Assembly: GCA_937922655.1 (NCBI GenBank)
Contig: CALAJH010000062.1
Span: 1-58,460, forward strand
Reading direction: 5' to 3'
Source: an uncultured Bacteroidia bacterium
GTDB lineage: Bacteria; Bacteroidota; Bacteroidia; J057; CALAJH01
DNA length: 58,460 nt
This document shows positions 65-54,875 of the stretch, one piece after another; position 1 is the first letter of the stretch; each line of letters begins with the position of its first letter. Under the pieces are notes generated by a model, which was not told where the DNA came from, searched no databases, and worked only from the letters and a program-made list of their open reading frames with translations. A program made the position numbers and the translations under genes.

Positions 65-2974
65 ATGAGAAAATTGCTATTGTTAGCGCTGGCCGTGTTG
101 GTAACGACGTCGTCGGAAGTTTTAGCCCAAAGACGGGTAAACATCGTACACGTCGGCCTCGGCGCTCCCGCCGTAAATGTTGTCGCCAACGGCACGACCG
201 TCGCCGCGGGGCTTAATTATTTGCAAGCCACGGGCATCTTGGCGGTGGACAATCTTTTGGGCGGCGGCAACGATTTGAACGTTCAAATCCTTGCCGAAGG
301 CGGCTCCAACCCCGTTTTGAGCCGAACCCTTACCTTCACCCAAGCGCAAGAAGACCTCTACGTGGTTGTAGCGGGTAATGCGCTCGGTTTGTTTGAATTG
401 CCCCCACTTGGGATTTACATCCAAAACACAGATTTTGATTTGCCCACAGGCGAGTCGAATTTCGACGTTTTTCATGCCGCGTCCATCGGTATTCCCGTAC
501 AAATCAGCCTCAACGGCCAGGTTGCCGTATCGGAATTGTCGTTTGGCGAATTTATTCCCGAACCCGCGTCTTTGACCGCCGGCAATTACAACATCGATAT
601 TGCCGCCTCCGAAAACCCTACCCGTGCGTTATTCAAATATAACGTGGCCGTTGAAGAGGGGCTTAGCGGTCTGCTTTTTGCCGCCAATCCGTCGTTAACG
701 CGCCCTTTGCCCTTAGGCTTGTACGTCGTTATTAACGAAGCGGTTATACCTCTCAGCGGCGTTAACGAACAAAAAATACAGGTGGTACACAATTCGTTCA
801 ACGCTCCCCGAGTGGATGTTTTCGTGAACGGAAACCCCACTCCCGCCATCTCGGGGCTTGGTTTTCGCGAGGCTACCGCCTTTATTCCCGTGGGGGCGCT
901 CGCCGGCCCGAACTCTCAAATCACCGTGGACTTGGCGCCTGCGGGCGCGGGTATTGCCGCGTCGGTCTTAAACAAGACCATAGAATTTTACTTTCATACC
1001 GAAGAGACTTACGTAGTGGCCGCCGGCCCGCTCGCCGGCTTGGATTTATACAATGCACCGACCGGTTATTATTTTTCGCCCAACGACAACGTTGCACAAA
1101 TCGACCTTTTCCACGGCGTATCCGATGCGCCTATTGTAGACGTTCGTGCTTGCGGCGATGTGGCATACGATGGTTTGGGGCCGTACGAGTTCTCCGATGA
1201 GCCTCTGGAAGTACCCGCCGGAACTTACGACCTAGACGTTACCGCCGCCGGCGAATCGAATCCCGTTTACAGCGCCACCGTCACGCTCAATTCTTCTTCA
1301 AAAGGCTTGGTCATCGCCTCCGGACTTCTCCAACCCGCTCCCGGGGAACCGGCATTCGGCCTTTTCCTCGTTCCTCCCTCGGGCGCCGATTTTATGCCTT
1401 TGGATACGCTGGTACGCTCCAAACAAAAAATACAAATCGTACATGCCTCCCCGGATGCGCCCGCCGTGGATATTTTCATCAACGGCAATCCCGTAGCCGC
1501 CGTCAGCAACTTAAAATTTAAAGAGGCAACGGGCGTGGTGAATATTGGCGATTTGAACGTCGTCCGTTGTGGAAAAGTGAATGTGAGCATCGCTCCCGCG
1601 GGCGCGGGCATCAGCCAAGCGGTCTACAATCAAACGTTGGAATTTACGTCTTCGGATGCGACGGCGTACGTAGTGGCTTCGGGTTTGCTGGCCGGCGGCG
1701 CCAATCCCTTTGATTTGTTCGTAACCGAGGGGGCGAATTTCGGTCCCGTTTCCGGCGGTGCGAAGGTTATTGCATTCCATGGTTCTCCGGACGCGCCTGC
1801 GGTGGACGTGCGCAGCGGTGGCTCCGCCGTTGTTTCCAACCTCGCTTTCGGCGACTTCAAGCCTTCCGGATACCTGACCCTTCCCGCCGGAGAATACGAA
1901 TTGGAAATTGCTCCCACGGCTACCTCCAACGCCGTGGCTTGCTTTAAGGCCGCGGTTACGAACGAAACGGTAGGCTTGATTCTGGCCAACGGTTTGCTAA
2001 ACGGATCGCCCCAATTTGGATTGAGTTTGGTTACCCCCACGGGAACGGTCGTGGACTTGTCCGCATGTCCGCCCTCGATTACCATTCAGGTTTTTCACAA
2101 CGTTCCGGACGCTCCGGCGGTGGATATTTTTGTAAACGACAACCCCGAACCGGCGATTCGCAATTTGGCGTTCCGCCAATCGTCCGCCCGATTGGATTAT
2201 CGCGGCCCGGCCAATGTTAATGTAAAAATCTTCCGTGCTGGGGACACCGGCCAACCGGTGTTTGAAAAGTCTTGGGATTTGTCGTCGGCCACGGGAGTTT
2301 ATTTGGTGGCGGCGGGCGAATTGAGCGGATCCAAACCCTTCGACGTATATGCCTACCCGAACGCACGTTTTGTCCCTGCGGGTTCCAAGGCCATTGTACA
2401 GGTCTTCCACGGTTCTCCCGACGCTCCCACGGTGGACGTTTACGTCAACGGAGACGTTGTCGTTCCGGGCTTGGCGTTTGGCGCCTTTGCGCCCAACTAT
2501 CTTGAAATTTCACCCGCTACTTACACCGTTGGTATCGCTCCTGCGGGCGAAGCCGTCATTGCCAACTTTGTTGCCCCGATTTCCCAGCCTGCCGCCGCCT
2601 TGGTGTTGGCTTCGGGCTATCTGAATCCGCCTACGGAAAACGACCCTGAATTTGGTTTGTTTGCCACTTTCTCTCCCGGCAACTGGATACCTTTGCCCGT
2701 CCAAACGAGTCGCGCGGCTTCCGCGCTGGCAAGCGCCGTTTCGGTCTTTCCCAATCCCGCCACCGACGTCGTTTACCTTGCCGCCGTGGATGTAAAAGCG
2801 TCCAACGCCGTACTTTCGCTCACCGACCTTTCCGGTAAAACCGTCTTGACCCAAAACGTATCTCTTACCGAAGGCGCCGTTGCCGTTGACGTTTCGAGTC
2901 TTGTACCCGGCTTGTACACCTATCGCCTTGCCGCCGGCGAACGTGCCAACTTCGGACGCATCGTCGTTAAATAA
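65..2974 (+). CDS. T9SS-secreted protein with about eight DUF4397 repeats
   Basis: 969 residues. A signal peptide covers about residues 1-21, ending at VLAQ. It is followed by about eight ~105-residue repeats, each opening with a strand of the type IQVVHxSPDAPAVDIFVNG, near residues 22, 130, 236, 344, 454, 566, 672 and 776. This is the DUF4397 pattern, a beta-sandwich family of cell-surface proteins. The last ~80 residues (VFPNPATDVVYL ... GLYTYRLAAG) are a type A T9SS sorting domain, so the protein should cross the outer membrane through T9SS and be anchored or released at the surface. The role is probably adhesion or matrix; no catalytic motif is visible. The ATG at 65 has an AT-rich leader and no clear Shine-Dalgarno. 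Two hairpins follow the stop codon. Confidence 0.9.
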   Translation: MRKLLLLALAVLVTTSSEVLAQRRVNIVHVGLGAPAVNVVANGTTVAAGLNYLQATGILAVDNLLGGGNDLNVQILAEGGSNPVLSRTLTFTQAQEDLYVVVAGNALGLFELPPLGIYIQNTDFDLPTGESNFDVFHAASIGIPVQISLNGQVAVSELSFGEFIPEPASLTAGNYNIDIAASENPTRALFKYNVAVEEGLSGLLFAANPSLTRPLPLGLYVVINEAVIPLSGVNEQKIQVVHNSFNAPRVDVFVNGNPTPAISGLGFREATAFIPVGALAGPNSQITVDLAPAGAGIAASVLNKTIEFYFHTEETYVVAAGPLAGLDLYNAPTGYYFSPNDNVAQIDLFHGVSDAPIVDVRACGDVAYDGLGPYEFSDEPLEVPAGTYDLDVTAAGESNPVYSATVTLNSSSKGLVIASGLLQPAPGEPAFGLFLVPPSGADFMPLDTLVRSKQKIQIVHASPDAPAVDIFINGNPVAAVSNLKFKEATGVVNIGDLNVVRCGKVNVSIAPAGAGISQAVYNQTLEFTSSDATAYVVASGLLAGGANPFDLFVTEGANFGPVSGGAKVIAFHGSPDAPAVDVRSGGSAVVSNLAFGDFKPSGYLTLPAGEYELEIAPTATSNAVACFKAAVTNETVGLILANGLLNGSPQFGLSLVTPTGTVVDLSACPPSITIQVFHNVPDAPAVDIFVNDNPEPAIRNLAFRQSSARLDYRGPANVNVKIFRAGDTGQPVFEKSWDLSSATGVYLVAAGELSGSKPFDVYAYPNARFVPAGSKAIVQVFHGSPDAPTVDVYVNGDVVVPGLAFGAFAPNYLEISPATYTVGIAPAGEAVIANFVAPISQPAAALVLASGYLNPPTENDPEFGLFATFSPGNWIPLPVQTSRAASALASAVSVFPNPATDVVYLAAVDVKASNAVLSLTDLSGKTVLTQNVSLTEGAVAVDVSSLVPGLYTYRLAAGERANFGRIVVK

Positions 2975-2986
2975 CGCTCTTTCGCG

Positions 2987-3013
2987 CACGTCCCCCACAA
3001 TGTGGGGGACGTG
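2987..3013. repeat. Perfect inverted repeat after the DUF4397 gene
   Basis: Arms CACGTCCCCCACA and TGTGGGGGACGTG form a long GC-rich hairpin with almost no loop, 12 bases after the stop codon. There is no T-tract, so by itself it is more likely a 3' stabilising stem or a bidirectional element than a terminator. A proper terminator follows at 3031. Confidence 0.7.
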
Positions 3014-3030
3014 TTATATGTGAAATCCGG

Positions 3031-3057
3031 GCGCCCCCGAAAGGGGGCGTTTTTTTA
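3031..3057 (+). terminator. Intrinsic terminator of the DUF4397 gene
   Basis: Stem GCGCCCCC / GGGGGCG with a GAAA-type loop, followed directly by a T-run. This is a textbook rho-independent terminator for the gene ending at 2974. Confidence 0.88.
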
Positions 3058-3315
3058 TTTTCAAATGTTTATGCCGAAAACCACGTTTTCTAGGACAAAA
3101 ATCAACAACAGTACCAATGTTTATTGTAAACATTGGACTTTTTGGTATCCCTGTTTCTTAAACTAATTTCAGGGTCATACAAGAATATCGTTTTATCGTT
3201 TAATTTTTTGCTTTGACCGAAAAGTTGTGCGTTTCACGACGTTATCAACTAATTTTGCGTCATCAACATTTCGCCTATTTGAAAAATTTTATATCATAAT
3301 CATTATTTATTATCA

Positions 3316-23589: not shown

Positions 23590-23692
23590 CGCAACGCCGG
23601 GCAACGGGGCAAAGGGAATAGGTATAAACCCTTATTTTTAAATAAAAAATCGTTTTTCTTATATTTTATTTGCTTAAATAAAGTTCCTGTCG

Positions 23693-33099: not shown

Positions 33100-34311
33100 A
33101 TGAAGTTACTGACGGTGATGTTGCGGGTTCCGTATCCGGCGAACGACGGCGGTTCGGCGGTGATGTTGGCGACGTTGAACGCCTTGCGCGGCGCGGGTCA
33201 CGACGTCGTCGTCGCCGCCCTCAACACCGACAAACACCATTCTCCGCCCGAAGAATTACAACGACTTTCACCGATTTACACCGTCGATATCGACACCTCG
33301 ATACGTTGGACGGCGGCGCTGTCGAATGTTTTGTTTTCGCGCTTGCCGTACAACGTATCGCGTTTTTTGTCCGAAGATTTTTCCAAAACATTGAAAAACT
33401 TGGTTAAAGCAGAGGCGTACGACGCGATACTTTTTGAGGGGACTTACACGGCGTTGTACGCGCCGGCGGTGCGTGCGCAAACACGGGCGCCGTTGTTTTT
33501 GCGTGCGCACAACGTCGAAAACCTGATATGGCGACGCATGGCGACGGCGGAAAAAAACGTGTTCAAAAAATGGTTTTTTCGTCATTTGTCGGGGCGAATC
33601 AAGCGTTTCGAGGCGGAAAATTTGCCGTTTTTCGACGGCGTGATAGCGATTACGGAAAACGACGAGCGAGAGTTTCGTCGGATGGGGTACGGGGGGGAAA
33701 CGACGGTCGTTCCCGCGACGGCGAATTTGGAGCGTTTTTCGTTTCAAAAACCCGATGCGGGTTCGCGCAAGGTGGGATTTTTGGGGAGTTTGGATTGGGC
33801 GCCGAACGTTGAGGGATTGGTTTGGTTTGTGGAAAAAGTGTGGCCGTGGGTGCGCGACCGTGTACGGGGGGTGGAGTTTCACGTTGCGGGCCGCAATCCG
33901 TCGCCGGGTTTGGCGAAACGTTTGTCGGCCCCGGGGGTGGTGTTTCACGGTCAAGTGGACGACCCCGTCGAATATTTGCGTTCGTTCGGGGTGACGGTGG
34001 CGCCGTTGTGGTCGGGGGGGGGGATGCGGGTCAAAATCGTTGAACAGATGGCCTTGGGCAAGGCGGTGGTCGCGACGAGCGTCGGGGCCGAGGGTATAGA
34101 CGCGCAAAACGGACGCGAAATATTTATCGCCGACGCTCCCGTCGAGTTTGCCGAACGGGTTTTGGCGTTGTTGGCCGACGGTGCGCTTGTTGAACGCATG
34201 GGTTTGGCGGCGGCGAACTTTGCGGCGAGCCGCTTCGACGAACGGGGGTTGGCGGGGCGTTTCGAGTCGTTTTTTGCCCGTCGGGTTGGGGAGCTACGAC
34301 GGATTTCGTAA
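33100..34311 (+). CDS. Glycosyltransferase, GT4 type
   Basis: 403 residues from the ATG at 33100. The N-terminal Rossmann fold begins LLTVMLRVPYPANDGGSAVMLATLNAL (GG loop). The C-terminal half has VGFLGSLDWAPNVEGLVWF, VEFHVAGRNPSP, GVVFHGQVDDPVEYLRSFGVTVAPLWSGGGMRVKIVEQMALGKAVVATSVGAEGI, the standard GT-B/GT4 acceptor and nucleotide-sugar motifs (E of VEQMALG). It probably adds a sugar to a surface polysaccharide or lipid. It is divergent from the TrpF-like gene with only 21 bases between start codons. Third positions are G-rich. Confidence 0.9.
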   Translation: MKLLTVMLRVPYPANDGGSAVMLATLNALRGAGHDVVVAALNTDKHHSPPEELQRLSPIYTVDIDTSIRWTAALSNVLFSRLPYNVSRFLSEDFSKTLKNLVKAEAYDAILFEGTYTALYAPAVRAQTRAPLFLRAHNVENLIWRRMATAEKNVFKKWFFRHLSGRIKRFEAENLPFFDGVIAITENDEREFRRMGYGGETTVVPATANLERFSFQKPDAGSRKVGFLGSLDWAPNVEGLVWFVEKVWPWVRDRVRGVEFHVAGRNPSPGLAKRLSAPGVVFHGQVDDPVEYLRSFGVTVAPLWSGGGMRVKIVEQMALGKAVVATSVGAEGIDAQNGREIFIADAPVEFAERVLALLADGALVERMGLAAANFAASRFDERGLAGRFESFFARRVGELRRIS

Positions 34312-34316
34312 TTTTG
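34309..34316 (+). promoter_or_regulatory. -7 box TAATTTTG for the atp operon
   Basis: Exact TAnnTTTG match. It overlaps the TAA stop of the glycosyltransferase and ends five bases before the ATG at 34322. Confidence 0.65.
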
Positions 34317-34712: not shown

Positions 34713-35798
34713 ATGAATTTACCCATATCCGTAATCCTGCGAATCATTGTTGTTTTGGTTTTGGCGTTTCCGACGTTGGCAAGGGCTTCGGAAACGAAAG
34801 CCGAAGGAGAACAAAGCGGCGGGTTCAACGTAACCGAACTTTTGCTTCACCACGTATTGGACTCCCACGATTGGCACATCGTCGACATACCGACGGGAGG
34901 GGGTAAATACTTTACGGTTTCGGTTTCGTTGCCGTGGTTGCTTTACGATTCGGAAAAAGGGTTGAAATTTTTCTTTTTGCACGGCCACACCCCCGAAGAA
35001 TTGAACGCCTCGGCCGCCGAACACGGCTATCAAATCGACGGCCATGGACACATCGCCTCGCTAACCGGGGCGAATGTAGTCGATTTGTCGCCGACGAAAA
35101 CGGTATTGCACATTTTGATGGTGGCCTTGGTGATGCTGTTGTTGTTTACGCGCATAGCGTCGGCCTACAAGGCGCGTCCGAACCAAGCTCCGAAAGGCGC
35201 ACAGTCGTTTTTTGAGCCGTTGATAGTTTTTATCCGCGACGAAATTGCCAAGCCGAATCTTCACGGCAAACACGCGGCTTTCGTCCCGTATTTGCTTACG
35301 CTTTTCTTTTTCATTTGGTTCGCCAACATTTTCGGCATCATGCCGTTGAATTCAAACATCGCGGGCAACATCAGCGTGACGGCGGCGTTGGCGGTTTTAA
35401 CGTTTGTTTTGATACAATTCAACGGCACGAAGGACTACTGGGGGCATATATTTTGGTTTCCGGGGCTTCCCGTCCCGTTGAAATTGTTAATGACGGTCGT
35501 TGAAATCGTGGGTTTGCTGACCAAGCCGGTGGCTTTGGCCATACGTCTTTTCGCCAACATTTCGGCGGGCCACTTTATGGTCTTGGCTTTGATAAGTTTG
35601 ATATTTCTTTTGGGCAAACAAGGTCAAAGCGTCGGGGGGGCGCTGGGTATATTGCCGTTGTCGCTGGCGTTTTCGCTTTTCATTTTGACGCTTGAAGTGT
35701 TGGTGGCGATAGTTCAGGCGTACATTTTCACGTTATTGACGGCGGTGTTTATCGGTCAGGCGATGGAAAGCCACGACCACGCCGAAGCCGGACATTAA
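34713..35798 (+). CDS. atpB: F0F1 ATP synthase subunit a
   Basis: 361 residues, longer than the ~270-residue E. coli protein because of an N-terminal signal-like helix (residues 1-26) and a His-rich periplasmic segment (LLLHHVLDSHDWHIVD), typical of Bacteroidota. Essential helices are at the C-terminal half: FIWFANIFGIMPLN, KPVALAIRLFANISAGHFMV (with the conserved proton-channel Arg in IRLFAN) and LEVLVAIVQAYIFTLLTAVFI. It forms the proton half-channels of F0. The next gene starts 11 bases downstream but is not an ATP synthase gene. Confidence 0.96.
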   Translation: MNLPISVILRIIVVLVLAFPTLARASETKAEGEQSGGFNVTELLLHHVLDSHDWHIVDIPTGGGKYFTVSVSLPWLLYDSEKGLKFFFLHGHTPEELNASAAEHGYQIDGHGHIASLTGANVVDLSPTKTVLHILMVALVMLLLFTRIASAYKARPNQAPKGAQSFFEPLIVFIRDEIAKPNLHGKHAAFVPYLLTLFFFIWFANIFGIMPLNSNIAGNISVTAALAVLTFVLIQFNGTKDYWGHIFWFPGLPVPLKLLMTVVEIVGLLTKPVALAIRLFANISAGHFMVLALISLIFLLGKQGQSVGGALGILPLSLAFSLFILTLEVLVAIVQAYIFTLLTAVFIGQAMESHDHAEAGH

Positions 35799-35809
35799 TT
35801 TTATTTGCG

Positions 35810-36715
35810 GTGAATCTTCCCCACAATCCCTACGACCATTTTTTCAAAACCACGCTTGCGGAATACGCGCAAGAGCTGTTTTCGTACGTTTTGGGTACGC
35901 GCGTCTTGGACGTGATTGTCGAAACATTGGAGGAAGAGCAGGCCATTCTTCGCGCCACGCCGGACATGGTTTTTTTCTTGGTCTTGGAGGACGAACGGCG
36001 AATTCTAGGCCAACTCGAAGAAGAGACGGGCGAACCCGACGGATTGTGCAAAAAGCTTATTCAACATTTCTACCTTTTGGAAGAAAAATACGGACAAAAG
36101 CCTTTGCAGTTTGTCGGTTTTCTCAAAGACATTGCCCATCGATTTCGCAACGGACTCAACGACGGCGTCGAAGGTTTTGGAACGGGGCCGGGGGTGGCGT
36201 TTATTGCCTTTAATTTTTCCGACGTGCCCGCAGACCGTGTCGCCGCTCGAAGGACGTTGCCCGCTTTGGCCGTATCCCTGTTCTGCGACCGTTCGCGTCT
36301 TTCCGACGAGGCCGTCGCCTCACTCATGGACGACATAAAAAACTCCGCGAATGAAAAAGATTATCAAATTTTGTACTCGGGGCTGCAACTTGCATTGACC
36401 AAACAGCGTATATCGGAAGATTTATATGTAACGCTTATGGGGAAAATGATTGAAAAGGAGGGCGAGGATATTTTTTGGAGATTCGCCACCGAAGACCGTT
36501 TTGGAACCAAGTTTCTTTGGCCCAAAATTCAGGAATACGCCGACAAACAAAGCCGTGAGCTTGCCGAAAACGCTTACAAATCCGGGCGCGACGAGGGCAT
36601 ACGCGAAAATCAAATTCGCACCGCTCGCGCGATGCACAACAAAGGCGCCGACGCCGCTTTTATTTTCGAGATTACAGGCCTCCGCCCCGAAGAGTACTTG
36701 GGTAATGAACGCTAG
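35810..36715 (+). CDS. Rpn/PD-(D/E)XK-like nuclease family protein inside the atp operon
   Basis: 301 residues from the GTG at 35810. The pattern NPYDHFFKTTLAEYAQELFSYVLGTRV, then TPDMVFFLVLEDERRILGQLEEET, resembles Rpn-like (PDDEXK transposase-associated) proteins. These spread in Bacteroidota and cyanobacteria and usually end in charged helical repeats. Its C-terminus fits (RELAENAYKSGRDEGIRENQ, then a small motif ITGLRPEEYLG). The catalytic D and E-x-Q set is only partly visible (D52; LEEET for the usual EFQ), so activity is uncertain. It separates atpB from atpE, an unusual position, and is followed by a vestigial duplicate of part of itself. Confidence 0.7.
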   Translation: MNLPHNPYDHFFKTTLAEYAQELFSYVLGTRVLDVIVETLEEEQAILRATPDMVFFLVLEDERRILGQLEEETGEPDGLCKKLIQHFYLLEEKYGQKPLQFVGFLKDIAHRFRNGLNDGVEGFGTGPGVAFIAFNFSDVPADRVAARRTLPALAVSLFCDRSRLSDEAVASLMDDIKNSANEKDYQILYSGLQLALTKQRISEDLYVTLMGKMIEKEGEDIFWRFATEDRFGTKFLWPKIQEYADKQSRELAENAYKSGRDEGIRENQIRTARAMHNKGADAAFIFEITGLRPEEYLGNER

Positions 36716-36770
36716 CGCAAAGGCAACAAATTTCGTTTTGGAGGGCGAGGATATTTTTTCGAAATTCGCC
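36457..36770 (+). repeat. 31-base duplicate: gene copy and downstream relic
   Basis: GGAGGGCGAGGATATTTTTT at 36457-36476 inside the Rpn-like gene recurs at 36740-36759, after its stop codon. With the flanking bases, 29 of 31 positions match (36457-36487 and 36740-36770). The second copy encodes EGEDIFSKFA in the corresponding frame, then stops making sense, so 36716-36878 looks like debris of a second copy of the gene. Confidence 0.7.
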
Positions 36771-36829
36771 CCATGTAATTCGTGCCATCATTCAATCGAA
36801 TTTACTTGCATCATACACACAAGAAATTA

Positions 36830-36837
36830 TATATTTT
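36830..36837 (+). promoter_or_regulatory. -7-like box TATATTTT for atpE
   Basis: Seven of eight match to TAnnTTTG in an AT-rich leader, 41 bases before the ATG at 36879. It may drive the distal part of the atp operon independently of the inserted gene. Confidence 0.4.
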
Positions 36838-36878
36838 TAAATAAATAGGATTTATTAACCCAAAAATCAATAACAATT

Positions 36879-37109
36879 ATGCTGTTGGAATCCGGAATGG
36901 ATAAAATGGGCGCGGGCATCGGTGCGGGCGTAGCGGTCATCGGTGCGGGCTTGGGTATTGGCAAGTTGGCGGCTTCGGCCGTCGAATCCATGGCTCGTCA
37001 GCCCGAAGCGACCAACGACGTGCGCGGCGCCATGATTCTCACCGCGGCTTTCGTGGAAGGCGTGGCCTTGTTTGCCGAAGTGGTTTGTTTGCTTATCGCG
37101 CTCGGCTGA
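36879..37109 (+). CDS. atpE: F0F1 ATP synthase subunit c
   Basis: 76 residues, two helices. The loop ARQPEATNDVRG (39-50) is the conserved polar loop. The proton-carrying carboxylate is E60 (AAFVEGVALF). A second acidic residue, E67, follows in the same helix (ALFAEVVCLL), where relatives have a hydrophobic residue. The residue after E60 is Gly, not Ser/Thr, and residues associated with Na+ binding in helix 1 are not evident, so it is probably proton-coupled. Confidence 0.95.
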   Translation: MLLESGMDKMGAGIGAGVAVIGAGLGIGKLAASAVESMARQPEATNDVRGAMILTAAFVEGVALFAEVVCLLIALG

Positions 37110-37127
37110 CAAAAATTTTGCCGTTGT

Positions 37128-37148
37128 CCGCCCGCGGTTGGCGGGCGG
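37128..37148 (+). other. Stem-loop between atpE and atpF
   Basis: CCGCCCGC / GCGGGCGG with a 5-base loop and no T-run. It is likely an mRNA stem that stabilises the upstream c-subunit message, which needs more copies, rather than a terminator. Confidence 0.6.
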
Positions 37149-37187
37149 TACGCGGCTCCTTCTTTCATCTAAATCGGCATACCCACA

Positions 37188-37682
37188 ATGGAAATTATAC
37201 TCCCAAAGTTCGGTCTGTTTTTTTGGACGCTTGTCGTCTTTCTGACCGTCTTTTTTCTTTTGAAAAAATTTGCATGGGGGCCCATCCTCAAAGCCCTCAA
37301 CGACCGGGAAACCGACATCGAAAACAAGCTTAGGTCCGCCGCCGAAGCCGAGGCGCGCATGAAAACGCTCACCGCCGAGAACGAAAAAATCCTTCAAGAG
37401 GCTCAAAGCGAGCGCGCCAAAATCCTCAAAGAAGCCGGCGAACTTAAAGCGCAAATCATTGCCGAAGCCAAAAAAGAGGCCCAAGCCGAAGCCGCCAAAG
37501 AATTGGCCAACGCCCGGCGCGTCATCGAGTCCGAAAAAGCCGCCGCCGTCGCCCATATCAAGCAAACGGCCGTGCGTCTTTCCATCGAAGTGGCCGAAAA
37601 AGTCTTGCGCTACGAACTCGCCGACAAAACCAAGCACGAACAATTCGCCACGCAACTCGTCAACGACATTCGCCTCAATTAA
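37188..37682 (+). CDS. atpF: F0F1 ATP synthase subunit b
   Basis: 164 residues: one N-terminal membrane helix (FGLFFWTLVVFLTVFFLLKKF, ~6-26), then a long charged coiled coil rich in Ala, Lys and Glu (~35-140) and the delta-binding C-terminus. It is the peripheral stalk that holds F1 against F0. Its TAA overlaps the ATG of atpH by one base. Confidence 0.95.
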   Translation: MEIILPKFGLFFWTLVVFLTVFFLLKKFAWGPILKALNDRETDIENKLRSAAEAEARMKTLTAENEKILQEAQSERAKILKEAGELKAQIIAEAKKEAQAEAAKELANARRVIESEKAAAVAHIKQTAVRLSIEVAEKVLRYELADKTKHEQFATQLVNDIRLN

Positions 37683-38221
37683 TGTTACCCGAACGGATTG
37701 CCCGGCGCTACGCCAAATCGCTTTTTGAGTTGGCACAGGAAAAAAACGCGACCGACGCCGTCAAAAACGACGTCGACTTTTTAGAGCGGGTTTACGACCT
37801 CACGCCCGAATTTCGCTTTTTTTTGCGCGGCCCCGAGGTACAACCCCGCGTCAAGGCCCGAATCCTTAAAATTCTCTTTGACGGCAAACTGCACGTCGTT
37901 ACGGGGACGTTTTTGGAACTTCTGGCTATGCGCAGCCGCGTCGAACTTTTGCCCCAAATCGCGTACGCCTTTTTGGATTTGTATCATCAATCGCGCAACG
38001 AGGTCGTCGTCAAGCTTATCAGCGCCCAAGCCCTTTCCGACGAACAAAAAAATATTATTGCCCAAAGGGTAAAAACGGGACTCAACAAAACGCCGATTTT
38101 GCGCGAAGAGGTGCGTCCCGAACTCATCGGCGGATTTAAACTTCTTATCGGAACCCAACTTTACGACCAAACGGTCGTACGCGCATTGCGTAAAATCGAA
38201 AAAGAATTTTCCAAAATTTAA
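37682..38221 (+). CDS. atpH: F0F1 ATP synthase subunit delta
   Basis: 179 residues. The N-terminus [20 protein letters not shown] and the C-terminal [27 protein letters not shown] are the family signatures. It links the b stalk to the top of F1. Translationally coupled to atpF (TAATG) and followed by atpA after 26 bases. Confidence 0.95.
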
Positions 38222-38247
38222 TCAATACCCCAGCGGTTCAAACATAT

Positions 38248-39828
38248 ATGATAGAAGTCAGGCCGGACGAAGTTTCGGCAATTCTTAGAGAACAGCTGTC
38301 GGGCTTTAAGTCGGCGGCGGAACTGGAAGAAGTAGGTACGGTATTGCAGGTGGGCGACGGTATCGCCCGAGTTTACGGTTTGACGAGCGTCGAAGCGGGC
38401 GAACTCGTCGAATTTGAAAATCAAATGAAGGGTATGGTGCTCAACCTCGAAGAGGACAACGTGGGCGTCGTACTCTTTGGCCAATCCACGGGTATACGCG
38501 AAGGAAGCATCGTCCGCCGTACCAAACAAATCGCGTCGGTGAAAGTCGGCGACGGTATGTTGGGGCGGGTCGTCAATCCTTTGGGCGAACCGATAGACGG
38601 CAAAGGACCGATTACCGGTTCGCTTTACGATTGTCCTTACGAACGCGTGGCCCCGGGCGTGATTTATCGTCAGCCCGTCAGCGAGCCTTTGCAAACGGGC
38701 ATCAAGGCCATCGATTCCATGATTCCCATCGGACGCGGCCAACGCGAATTGATTATCGGCGACCGCGCCACGGGAAAAACCGCCATCGCCCTCGACACCA
38801 TCCTCAATCAAAAACAAGGCTTCGAAACGGGCAAAGACCCCGTTTACTGCATTTACGTCGCTTGCGGACAAAAAGCCTCGACGGTGGCGCAGGTCGTCAA
38901 AATACTTGAAGACCGGGGCGCGATGCCCTATACCATCGTCGTCGCCGCGCCCGCCTCCGCCCCCGCGCCCTTACAGTTTTTTGCGCCGTTTGCGGGTGCG
39001 GCCATCGGAGAATTTTTCCGCGACACCGGCCGCCACGCCCTCGTCATCTACGACGACCTTTCCAAACAAGCCGTCGCTTATCGCGAGGTGTCGTTGCTTT
39101 TGCGTCGTCCCCCCGGACGCGAAGCCTACCCCGGCGATATTTTCTATCTCCACTCCCGACTCCTTGAAAGGGCCGCAAAAATTATCGCCAACGACGACAT
39201 CGCCCGGCAAATGAACGACCTCCCCGAATCAATCAAGCCCATCATCAAAGGCGGGGGGTCGCTTACCGCCTTGCCCGTCATCGAAACCCAAATGGGCGAC
39301 GTCTCCGCCTACATCCCCACCAACGTCATCTCGATTACCGACGGCCAGATTTTCGTCGAGTCCAACCTTTTCAATTCCGGCGTTCGTCCCGCCATCAACG
39401 TCGGTATTTCGGTTTCGCGCGTCGGCGGCAGCGCCCAAATCAAGTCGATGAAAAAAGTCGCCGGTTCGCTCAAACTCGAACTCGCCCAATACCGCGAACT
39501 CGAAGCGTTTGCCAAATTCGGTTCCGACCTTGACGCCTCAACCAAGCTTCAGCTCGAACGCGGTAAACGCTCGGTCGAAATTCTCAAACAAGGTCAGTTC
39601 GTGCCGTATCCCGTCGAAGAGCAGGTCGCCGTGATTCACATCAACAGCAAAGGTTTGCTCTTGGACGTACCCGTGGAAAAAATTGCGGAATTTGAAAAAG
39701 AATTTCTTAATTTGGCGCGGATAAAGCTGCGTTCGACGCTCGACGCGGTCAAAGCCGGCAAGTTCGACGACGATATCGCCTCCCAACTCGAAAACGCGGC
39801 CAAAGAAATCGTCCCACGGTTCAAATAA
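38248..39828 (+). CDS. atpA: F0F1 ATP synthase subunit alpha
   Basis: 526 residues. P-loop [15 protein letters not shown], the [14 protein letters not shown] segment, and the SxxR-type ending [38 protein letters not shown] with the conserved arginine finger region ([11 protein letters not shown]). It forms the non-catalytic nucleotide sites of the alpha3beta3 head. Confidence 0.98.
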
Positions 39829-39831
39829 GCC

Positions 39832-40710
39832 ATGCCGAGTTTAAAAGACATACGCCTGCGCATCAAAAGCGTGCAAACCACGCAACAGACCACGCGGGCG
39901 ATGAAAATGGTGGCGGCCTCCAAGCTCCGCCGCGCCCAAGACACGATTTTGCAGTTTCGTCCGTACGCCAACAAGCTCGGCGAACTGCAGCGCAACTTGG
40001 TCGCCGCCGCCGGTTCCGATGTAACGTCCGAATACGCCGAAGTCCGCGAGACGAACAACGTCCTGTTTGTCGTCGTCACTTCCAACCGGGGGCTGTGCGG
40101 CGCTTTCAACGCCGCAATTATCAAACTCGCCCAGACCGCCGCCGAAAACGAATACGCCGAACTCCATCGTCAAGGAAAGGTCAAGTTCCTCTGCCTCGGC
40201 AAAAAAGGGTACGACTATTTCAAAAAACGCGGCTTTCCCATCGTTTCCGACGACTTCGACGTTTTTTCCAAACTCAGTTTCGACGTCGTGAACGTTGTCG
40301 GGGAGCGGATTTTAAAAGGTTTTCGCGACGGCGAATGGGACAAGGTCGTCTTGTTTTACAACGCCTTCAAGAACGTGGCCACCCAAATCCGTACCGAGGA
40401 GACGCTTTTGCCCGCAACGGCCCAAGCCGATGCGGGCGCCGTCCTTTCCACCGACTACATCTACGAACCCGACCAAGCCCAAATTCTCCGACGTCTTGTG
40501 CCGCAAATCCTTAAGACCCGTTTTTACAGGGCGGTCTTGGAATCGAACGCCTCCGAACACGGCGCACGCATGTTCGCCATGGACCAAGCCACCGAAAACG
40601 CCGAAGCCCTCGTCAAAGAACTGCGCCTCACCTTCAACAAAGCCCGTCAAGCCGCCATCACCAAAGAAATTTTGGAAATCGTCGGTGGCGCCGAAGCTTT
40701 GGCCTCCTAA
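39832..40710 (+). CDS. atpG: F0F1 ATP synthase subunit gamma
   Basis: 292 residues. N-terminal SLKDIRLRIKSVQTTQQTTRAMKMVAASKL and the central VVTSNRGLCGAFNAAII are diagnostic, and the C-terminal helix (EHGARMFAMDQATENAEALVKELRLTFNKARQAAITKEILEIVGGAEAL) completes the rotor shaft. Last gene of the cluster; atpD and atpC are elsewhere, as in many Bacteroidota. Confidence 0.97.
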   Translation: MPSLKDIRLRIKSVQTTQQTTRAMKMVAASKLRRAQDTILQFRPYANKLGELQRNLVAAAGSDVTSEYAEVRETNNVLFVVVTSNRGLCGAFNAAIIKLAQTAAENEYAELHRQGKVKFLCLGKKGYDYFKKRGFPIVSDDFDVFSKLSFDVVNVVGERILKGFRDGEWDKVVLFYNAFKNVATQIRTEETLLPATAQADAGAVLSTDYIYEPDQAQILRRLVPQILKTRFYRAVLESNASEHGARMFAMDQATENAEALVKELRLTFNKARQAAITKEILEIVGGAEALAS

Positions 40711-53864: not shown

Positions 53865-54875
53865 ATGAACGGCGGATTGGAGGCTTTTGTTTGCGACACG
53901 GGCATCAAACGGATAATGAACCGTAATCCCGAATTTTTTTGGGGCTTGTTGTTTCCGGGTTTGCGGGCGACGCTCGTCGTTCCGGGGGGCGACAAGGAGT
54001 TGGTCGAATCGGAACGGACTTTGCGCGGCGACGGTTCGTGGTCGGCCAAGGTGGAGGGCGTTGGCGAGGCGGCGTTTTTTTGGTGCGAGGCGTTTACGCG
54101 CTACGACAAAAACATCGCCGTGCGGGTCGTCGAATACAAGACGGGCAAGCATCGCGAGCATCTTTCGGCGCACAAGGAGTCGGCGGCGGTGTACGCGGGA
54201 GCGGTGGTTTTGACGCATCCGCCTTCGGGGGCGAGTTTTTCGCTTTCCGGGATGCCGGAGATTGTCGTTCCGCACGTGGTCATGCCGTGTTTGCCGGTTG
54301 AACGGTGTTTGGGCGTCGAGGGGATTGCGGGGGGCGCGTTGGCGGTTTTGTCGGACGAACGCAACCTTGCGGTCGATAAAATCGTAGAAAGGTTGAACGC
54401 GGTCGAGGACGAAGTTCAATGGCGGAGTTGGGCGTCGATAGTTTTCGGATTTTCGGCCGCGGTCAAGGACGGGAAATTTTTCAGGAAATTTATGGAGTTA
54501 TTGCAAACGACCGCGGAGGCGGAGAAGATTCGTAAACTTAAAGAGGAGTTGGCGCCGGTTTTGGAGGTGCTTTACGAGATGCGCTACGAGGAGGGCTTGG
54601 ACGAGGGTTTTTCTCAGGGTTTTTCTCAGGGCTTTTCGGAGGGTGAGAAAAAAGGCTTTTCGGAGGGTGAGAAAAAAGGCTTTTCGGAGGGTGAGAAAAA
54701 AGGTTTCTCTGAGGGCGAAAAAACGGGTTTCTCCAAGGGCGAATTGGGTAAAAGCTTGAAATTGGCGGCCAAACTTTTGGAGCGCGGCATGAGCGTCGAA
54801 GAGGTGGCCGACCTTACGGAACTCGACGTTGCGAAGGTGGCCGCCATCACTTCGGACAAAAACCCGATCGATTAA
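53865..54875 (+). CDS. Rpn/PD-(D/E)XK-like protein with GFSEGEKK repeats
   Basis: 336 residues from the ATG at 53865. Its core MNRNPEFFWGLLFPGLRATLVV, then FFWCEAFTRYDKNIAVRVVEYKTGKHREH, resembles Rpn-like nuclease family members (pattern with E, then xRYDKxxxxRxxxY). The C-terminal ~90 residues carry Gly-Phe-Ser repeats (GFSQ, GFSEGEKK), then LLERGMSVEEVADLTELDVAKVAAIT, a common ending of these proteins. It may be a mobile or toxin-like gene; it resembles the Rpn-like gene in the atp operon only in general layout. Confidence 0.7.
   Translation: MNGGLEAFVCDTGIKRIMNRNPEFFWGLLFPGLRATLVVPGGDKELVESERTLRGDGSWSAKVEGVGEAAFFWCEAFTRYDKNIAVRVVEYKTGKHREHLSAHKESAAVYAGAVVLTHPPSGASFSLSGMPEIVVPHVVMPCLPVERCLGVEGIAGGALAVLSDERNLAVDKIVERLNAVEDEVQWRSWASIVFGFSAAVKDGKFFRKFMELLQTTAEAEKIRKLKEELAPVLEVLYEMRYEEGLDEGFSQGFSQGFSEGEKKGFSEGEKKGFSEGEKKGFSEGEKTGFSKGELGKSLKLAAKLLERGMSVEEVADLTELDVAKVAAITSDKNPID
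54606..54749 (+). repeat. 24-bp tandem repeats in the Rpn-like gene
   Basis: Two 12-bp units GGTTTTTCTCAG (54606-54629) are followed by three near-identical 24-bp units (54630-54653, 54654-54677, 54678-54701) and two degenerate ones (54702-54749). The unit encodes GFSEGEKK. In-frame copy number could vary by slippage. Confidence 0.9.

Follow-up and report, generated by a model that had tools for sequence, protein, structure and literature searches.

A divergent Rpn-family gene lies between atpB and atpE in the ATP-synthase operon of an uncultured Bacteroidia bacterium

An Rpn-like gene in the atp operon

The window, a stretch of 58,460 nucleotides on contig CALAJH010000062.1 of an uncultured Bacteroidia bacterium (GCA_937922655.1), carries a set of atp genes on the + strand. 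The products AtpB (subunit a, 34713–35798), AtpE (subunit c, 36879–37109) and AtpF (subunit b, 37188–37682) were assigned by Pfam (PF00119, E = 5.9e-55; PF00137, 3.1e-16; PF00430, 2.6e-23, respectively), and atpH, atpA and atpG (37682–40710) were named by reading their translations, with no family search behind these names. Searching the whole assembly returned a single AtpB match and a single AtpE match. Between atpB and atpE, on the same strand, lies an open frame of 301 amino acids (35810–36715) that starts with GTG, hereafter the rpn-like gene (RpnL-like). The atpB stop ends at 35798 and leaves an 11-nt gap (TTTTATTTGCG, 35799–35809, + strand), exactly as an earlier sequence-only reading of this DNA had described; a further 163 nt separate the end of the rpn-like gene from the atpE start at 36879. 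The position of the rpn-like gene inside the atp operon is real.

A protein search of the same genome identified six full-length homologues (25–32% identity) and one C-terminal fragment (43%). An alignment of the window protein with six siblings (A1) contains 11 invariant columns, D9, K13 and D52 among them. Because of these same-genome homologues and invariant columns, we conclude that the frame is a real gene and not a chance frame.

The window protein matched no Pfam family at the gathering score, PF12784 (PDDEXK_2) and PF04754 (Transposase_31) included, and PADLOC gave no match. The NCBIfam model TIGR01784 aligned with residues 238–294 only (E = 0.0018, 18.2 bits; cut-off 52.1). An assembly-wide search with this model returned nothing above the cut-off, and the window gene was absent from its matches; the sibling on C3 scored 53.2 bits as a protein and 38.1 in the genome search. 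At E ≤ 0.1, TIGR01784 matched six of the seven A1 proteins; at 0.001, two of the six siblings (the window protein aside) had no match. PF04754 touched one of seven siblings (E = 0.033). When profiles were compared with hhalign, A1 aligned over its whole length with A2, which consists of five Rpn-like proteins of a same-order genome (G004; E = 1.4e-22), and D52, E70 and E72 fell opposite invariant D, E and Q. A third alignment, A3, holds eight Rpn-type proteins of relatives, three of which were scanned and are PF12784 members. It matched A1 columns 11–91, the core (probability 97.7%, E = 2e-12), with E70-x-E72 opposite E-x-Q; D52 did not lie opposite the D of the A3 'FDI' motif. By both comparisons, the N-terminal domain (core at approximately residues 6–86) is homologous to other Rpn PD-(D/E)XK cores. 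A hinge and C-terminal tail could be placed by sequence at approximately residues 238–295, where the TIGR01784 and PHROG matches fall. A PDB search with A1 returned 8vd6 ('CAP REPEAT', E = 3.3e-5) and the RpnA tail 7th0 (E = 0.13), and a structure prediction from the window protein alone was poor (mean pLDDT 46). Judged by sequence, the window gene encodes a divergent Rpn (YhgA-like) protein, of predicted PD-(D/E)XK DNA endonuclease type with a variable C-terminal tail. The proposed Rpn and PD-(D/E)XK kinship is thus borne out by the TIGR01784 score of the sibling and by hhalign against A2 and A3.

Used alone as the query, the window protein found no match in 21 other genomes of its order. With A1 as the query, 44 of 395 genomes of the class matched at E 0.001 and 21 of 395 genomes of the phylum at 1e-8, its own genome being counted each time; the 44 include ten other same-order genomes, and many of these class-level matches cover the C-terminus only.

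In E. coli RpnA, all phenotypes were lost upon D11A, D63A, E82A or Q84K substitution, and toxicity was kept upon Q84A substitution (PMC5350276). By order and spacing, the residues D11, D63, E82 and Q84 would correspond to D9, D52, E70 and E72 of the window protein, and on this fit the family Q is an E (E72) in the window copy. By analogy with the family, the window protein may be a nuclease, an expectation against which the E in place of the Q counts. Zhong et al. (PMC10327210) describe that in E. coli the same rpn gene yields RpnL and a short C-terminal product, RpnS, that this C-terminal part is made separately and blocks the toxic RpnL, and that one pair limits phages; the phage-limiting Rpn it mentions is plasmid-borne. 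The window gene has in-frame ATGs at 36437 and 36446, predicted starts of a candidate RpnS-like product of 92 or 89 amino acids (36437–36712, +). By the same analogy, the gene may produce RpnS and serve in defence, and its mechanism would be that of a nuclease with its own antitoxin, read here from the atp transcript.

Rpn-like genes and 3'-end copies elsewhere in the genome

TIGR01784 marks 26 places in the assembly and misses four siblings, which makes 30 rpn-like places on 24 contigs in one 3.6-Mb assembly. An open frame of at least 299 codons is present at 18 of them; the remainder are fragments or extra 3' copies. Several rpn places on different contigs have stretches in common at 87–98% identity, and half of them (15 of 30) have a contig end at most 1 kb away, where 1.4 such places would be expected. 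Repeats at which this assembly breaks include the rpn genes, and the excess near contig ends would fit an assembly error, with a repeat-family gene misjoined into the atp operon. We consider such an error extremely improbable. Both flanks belong to one operon, and an error would require two wrong joins that lead back to the same place. Moreover, no close copy was found in the genome (the nearest full-length protein is 32% identical), and comparing seven sibling loci as DNA gave a sole match of 38 nt.

The rpn-like places of this assembly include several subfamilies; similar copies recur from contig to contig, and the number of coil repeats varies. A second rpn-like gene of the window (53865–54875, +) encodes 336 amino acids with GFSEGEKK coil repeats; TIGR01784 matches its residues 278–326 (E = 1.7e-5), and stronger FliH-type matches are due to the coil. 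Its ATG is preceded by ATTAATTTTA, as at the atpB end.

According to mechanical ORF calls, five of the 18 long frames sit 11–55 nt behind a same-strand gene (C62, C3 twice, C50 and C41). The idea that rpn genes lie mainly in core operons was dropped, as most occupy ordinary intergenic places in our reading of those calls. One rpn copy was seen 69 nt before a gene read as nuoD, with no other nuo genes alongside in the stretch read. A start codon could be set for 13 of the 18 genes, leaving out C71 and the two-strand or unclear starts on C5, C21, C39 and C33. A TAnnTTTG box lies at most 30 nt from the start in six of these 13 rpn genes versus six of 112 other ORFs (p = 0.00025). The window copy is not one of the six: seven of eight letters in its 11-nt gap agree with TAnnTTTG, a likeness noted by eye and suggestive only.

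We noted that 31 nt within the 3' part of the window gene (36457–36487, +) recur behind it at 36740–36770 (+) with 94% identity. This second copy keeps its reading frame within a small ORF of 47 amino acids (36705–36848, +), whose ATG overlaps the end of the rpn-like gene. A stand-alone function of this ORF was considered less likely; no NCBIfam model matches it, and it resembles longer rpnS copies, a likeness that makes a remnant the more probable identity. The 31-nt repeat and the 47-aa ORF are probably a truncated downstream rpnS copy, a stump. The C41 sibling is arranged in the same way (93 nt at 98%), and longer tandem 3' copies occur at the rpn loci on C36 (303 nt, 91%), C73 (316 nt, 86%), C17 (295 nt, 87%) and C26 (304 nt, 91%), with a further one of 208 nt at 87% on C1. 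Scored as at least 28 nt at 85% identity or more within 450 nt of the stop, downstream partial copies were found for three of 36 Rpn genes drawn from several genomes (two of the three in this genome) versus one of 362 control ORFs (p = 0.0026), the controls coming from the window and loci L050–L129, mostly Flavobacterium, not from the genomes that supplied the Rpn genes. Extra rpnS copies are described behind rpnE and, in some strains, rpnC (PMC10327210); behind the window gene the extra copy is present only as the 31-nt stump.

Two side observations concern Rpn loci in other genomes. At L160 (G012), the rpn 3' part is present as a 513-nt tandem copy (2012–2524 and 2635–3147, 99.8% identity), a fresh example of 3'-end duplication. 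At L173 (1768–2067, +, G012) and L174 (1586–1993, −, G002), both of the same order, we observed short Rpn derivatives in which, by eye, approximately the first 20 Rpn residues are followed directly by the C-terminal part and the nuclease core is missing.

The rpn-like gene had been described as foreign-looking and as possibly an insertion event caught in an essential operon; the data support neither a foreign look nor a recent event. Its GC content is 50.3% (atpB, 50.4%) and its GC3 57.3%, compared with 57.8–70.3% in the other atp genes (atpH, 57.8%), values that are host-like. The seven siblings from this genome group together (95/90) in a tree built from 18 Rpn-like proteins. The branch of the window copy is 1.41 changes per site long; those of C37, C23 and C3 measure 1.34–1.51, and those of C58, C71 and C41 0.22–0.62. 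Host-like composition and deep divergence from the siblings argue against recent acquisition from a close relative, and the long branch and the truncated downstream copy do not suit a recent event.

The same features bear on whether the gene is a decaying passenger, that is, an inactive relic kept only because the insertion was neutral, which we regard as rather unlikely. Decay would be in keeping with the Q-to-E and R-to-K changes at positions fitting RpnA Q84 and R94, with the truncation of the downstream copy, and with a branch far longer than those of C58, C71 and C41. However, all 301 codons are open, D9, K13 and D52 are kept, and the branches of C37, C23 and C3 are equally long. The E-x-E motif, moreover, is common to the window copy and the sibling on C23, and this points to a trait of a subfamily more than to decay.

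The atpB–atpE junction in relatives and expression across it

We searched 59 other genomes for AtpB and AtpE, and 57 have both. The two genes are on one contig in 56 of the 57, with 45–195 nt between match ends; the sole exception (G046) has them on different contigs. All 21 same-order genomes, which represent other families, have atpB next to atpE. The closest AtpB proteins (57–64% identical) also come from other families of the order. We then compared 109 junction loci, in which at least three contigs occur twice. In 106, the gap from the atpB stop to the first in-frame ATG spans −17 to 183 nt and is too short for the rpn-like gene of the window; the other three were unmeasurable, two at contig ends and one (L038, from G046) where atpE does not follow. 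At L038 the atp cluster is split after atpB, and neither atpE nor an rpn match comes next in the stretch examined. These comparisons support insertion of the rpn-like gene into an otherwise conserved atp order.

They also make it unlikely that the arrangement is old and fixed family-wide, with rpn as a regular member of the atp operon whose role would be tied to ATP synthase or the energy state. The host-like GC, the open frame with conserved residues and the long terminal branch would agree with such an arrangement, but the gene is missing at this place from every one of the 21 same-order genomes of other families. Rpn-like genes also occupy many unrelated places in the genome, and nothing therefore marks the atp copy as an ATP-synthase partner.

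The right edge of the insertion was sought in the atpE leaders of relatives. Positions 36839–36878 (+), the probable old atpE leader, are the best segment of the whole atpB–atpE gap for the leaders of L011 and L013, whose scores were reached by 37 and 34 of 500 shuffles, respectively. The corresponding counts were 15 for L014, 67 for L010, 409 for L012, 371 for L016 and 337 for L026; the match is thus moderately above shuffles for some relatives, and L012, L016 and L026 have none. The old leader (~40 nt) seems to be kept before atpE, which suggests that ~1.03 kb were inserted between the atpB stop and this leader.

We found no inverted repeats of at least 12 nt joining the edges near 35799 and 36840, and the one sequence noticed by eye on both sides is an AT-rich TTTATT. 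PMC10327210 describes rpn genes as gained and lost as single genes with variable ends and with no inverted repeats or target duplications that could be identified, and does not show them to be autonomous mobile elements; the sequence-only reading had called them suspected mobile or recombination-promoting elements. Single-gene gain would nevertheless be compatible with a jump into the operon by an autonomous element, transposase-like or homing, as would the many copies, several of them 87–98% identical in part between contigs. The edges and the published analysis argue against such an element, and the window protein had no relative in the phages, plasmids or viral contigs searched; we therefore think an autonomous element very unlikely. 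Illegitimate recombination is the more likely mode of insertion than transposition.

For expression, we considered the motif TTG-N17-23-TAnnTTTG, which we take to be the Bacteroidota promoter pattern. The + strand of the window has 11 occurrences (1.1 in shuffles) and the − strand only two, and some of the hits fall within ORFs. A strict motif, TTG-N20-TAATTTTG (34286–34316, +), stands ahead of the atp genes. Before atpE, a TTG at 36806 is followed after N21 by TATATTTT at 36830–36837 (+), one letter off TAnnTTTG, so that the -7-like box previously proposed at 36830 is present; its spacing is within the range of 20–22 where the strict motif clusters in the window. The relaxed motif arose in 83 of 2000 shuffles of 36716–36878 and in none of seven relatives' gaps; being absent from these gaps, the promoter-like box belongs to the inserted DNA. 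A generic sigma-70 scan gave one site versus 1.6 expected and was set aside in favour of the Bacteroidota motif. As a separate observation, strict motifs end 6–23 nt before long ORFs at 34286 and 23670 (+) and at 23612 and 58031 (−) of the window, which suggests very short or absent leaders there.

A simple scan found no terminator-like site on the + strand of 35874–37200. One such site lies at 35855–35873, inside the start of the rpn-like gene, and over the region both strands together have seven versus 3.6 expected. No Rfam family reached its gathering threshold in the window, and the RNA fold of 36700–36885 is no better than shuffles (z = −0.45). With a gap of 11 nt behind atpB, the rpn-like gene is probably expressed from the atp transcript; read-through from rpn into atpE appears possible, and a second promoter before atpE plausible. 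It had been argued that an insertion here would upset stoichiometry unless a new promoter serves atpE. The promoter-like box is indeed in place, but the concern itself is weakened by the terminator-free stretch, by the apparently kept leader and by the E. coli case, where c-subunit output is raised at the level of translation initiation on atpE. Co-transcription across the junction and use of the box would be consistent with these sequence features.

Interpretation and known parallels

Taken together, we favour, with a probability of about 0.7, a joint reading in which a divergent Rpn gene arrived as a single-gene insertion, is expressed from the atp transcript, and is followed by an rpnS remnant. 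After this lineage had separated from the order's other families, one rpn gene with the DNA behind it would have inserted between the atpB stop codon and the atpE leader, by illegitimate recombination more likely than by transposition. The gene would have stayed open with host-like composition and would be read from the atp transcript; the downstream atp genes would be served by read-through and perhaps also by the promoter-like box at 36806–36837, and the 31-nt repeat would be the leftover of a downstream rpnS copy. Observed are the family relationship, the position, the absence from the relatives examined, and the repeat with its parallels.

A more speculative extension, which we hold to be distinctly unlikely, is that selection keeps rpn in the atp operon. 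Steady transcription would supply RpnS, phage shut-off or energy collapse would free RpnL, and a promoter in the insert would uncouple atpE-F-H-A-G. If this were true, subunit c and F1 would be made apart from subunit a through an insert-borne promoter.

The locus indicates that membership of a toxic-nuclease family does not keep a gene from settling in the sole ATP-synthase operon found, between subunits whose ratio matters, and from persisting there as an open frame. A genome with 30 rpn-like places in the states of full gene, gene with extra 3' copy and truncated copy would also be useful for testing the origin and decay of rpnS copies. The family, single-gene gain and loss, and operon insertion (panC-panD) are already described; what is new here is a family member in an unusual, essential operon. 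Searches of the open-licence PMC literature found nothing on a gene inserted between atpB and atpE in Bacteroidetes or on an Rpn-family nuclease or putative transposase in Bacteroidetes, and no on-point title for a transposase insertion at atpE or in the atp operon.

The window gene resembles those of E. coli RpnA-E (TIGR01784, PF04754) in what, by order and spacing, would be a D...D...E-x-Q-like core and in its variable hinge and C-terminal tail, and also in the many copies per genome, the 3'-end copies downstream and the single-gene gain. It differs from them in an N-terminal part too divergent for Pfam, in Q-to-E and R-to-K changes at two active-site positions, and in a hinge of its own that lacks an array of four-residue repeats. 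With the PF12784 (PDDEXK_2) Rpn-type proteins of Bacteroidota it has in common a related nuclease core, the same length class and the same layout, but it has no PF12784 match, and its D52 is not opposite the A3 aspartate. The nearest parallel in position is rpnC (yadD), which also occupies a gap between genes of a conserved operon and is also missing from part of the relatives. According to PMC5350276, some Enterobacteriaceae have rpnC between panC and panD (18 of 32 sequences surveyed), with two entries inferred. There, the host operon is biosynthetic; here, it is the ATP-synthase operon, in one genome.
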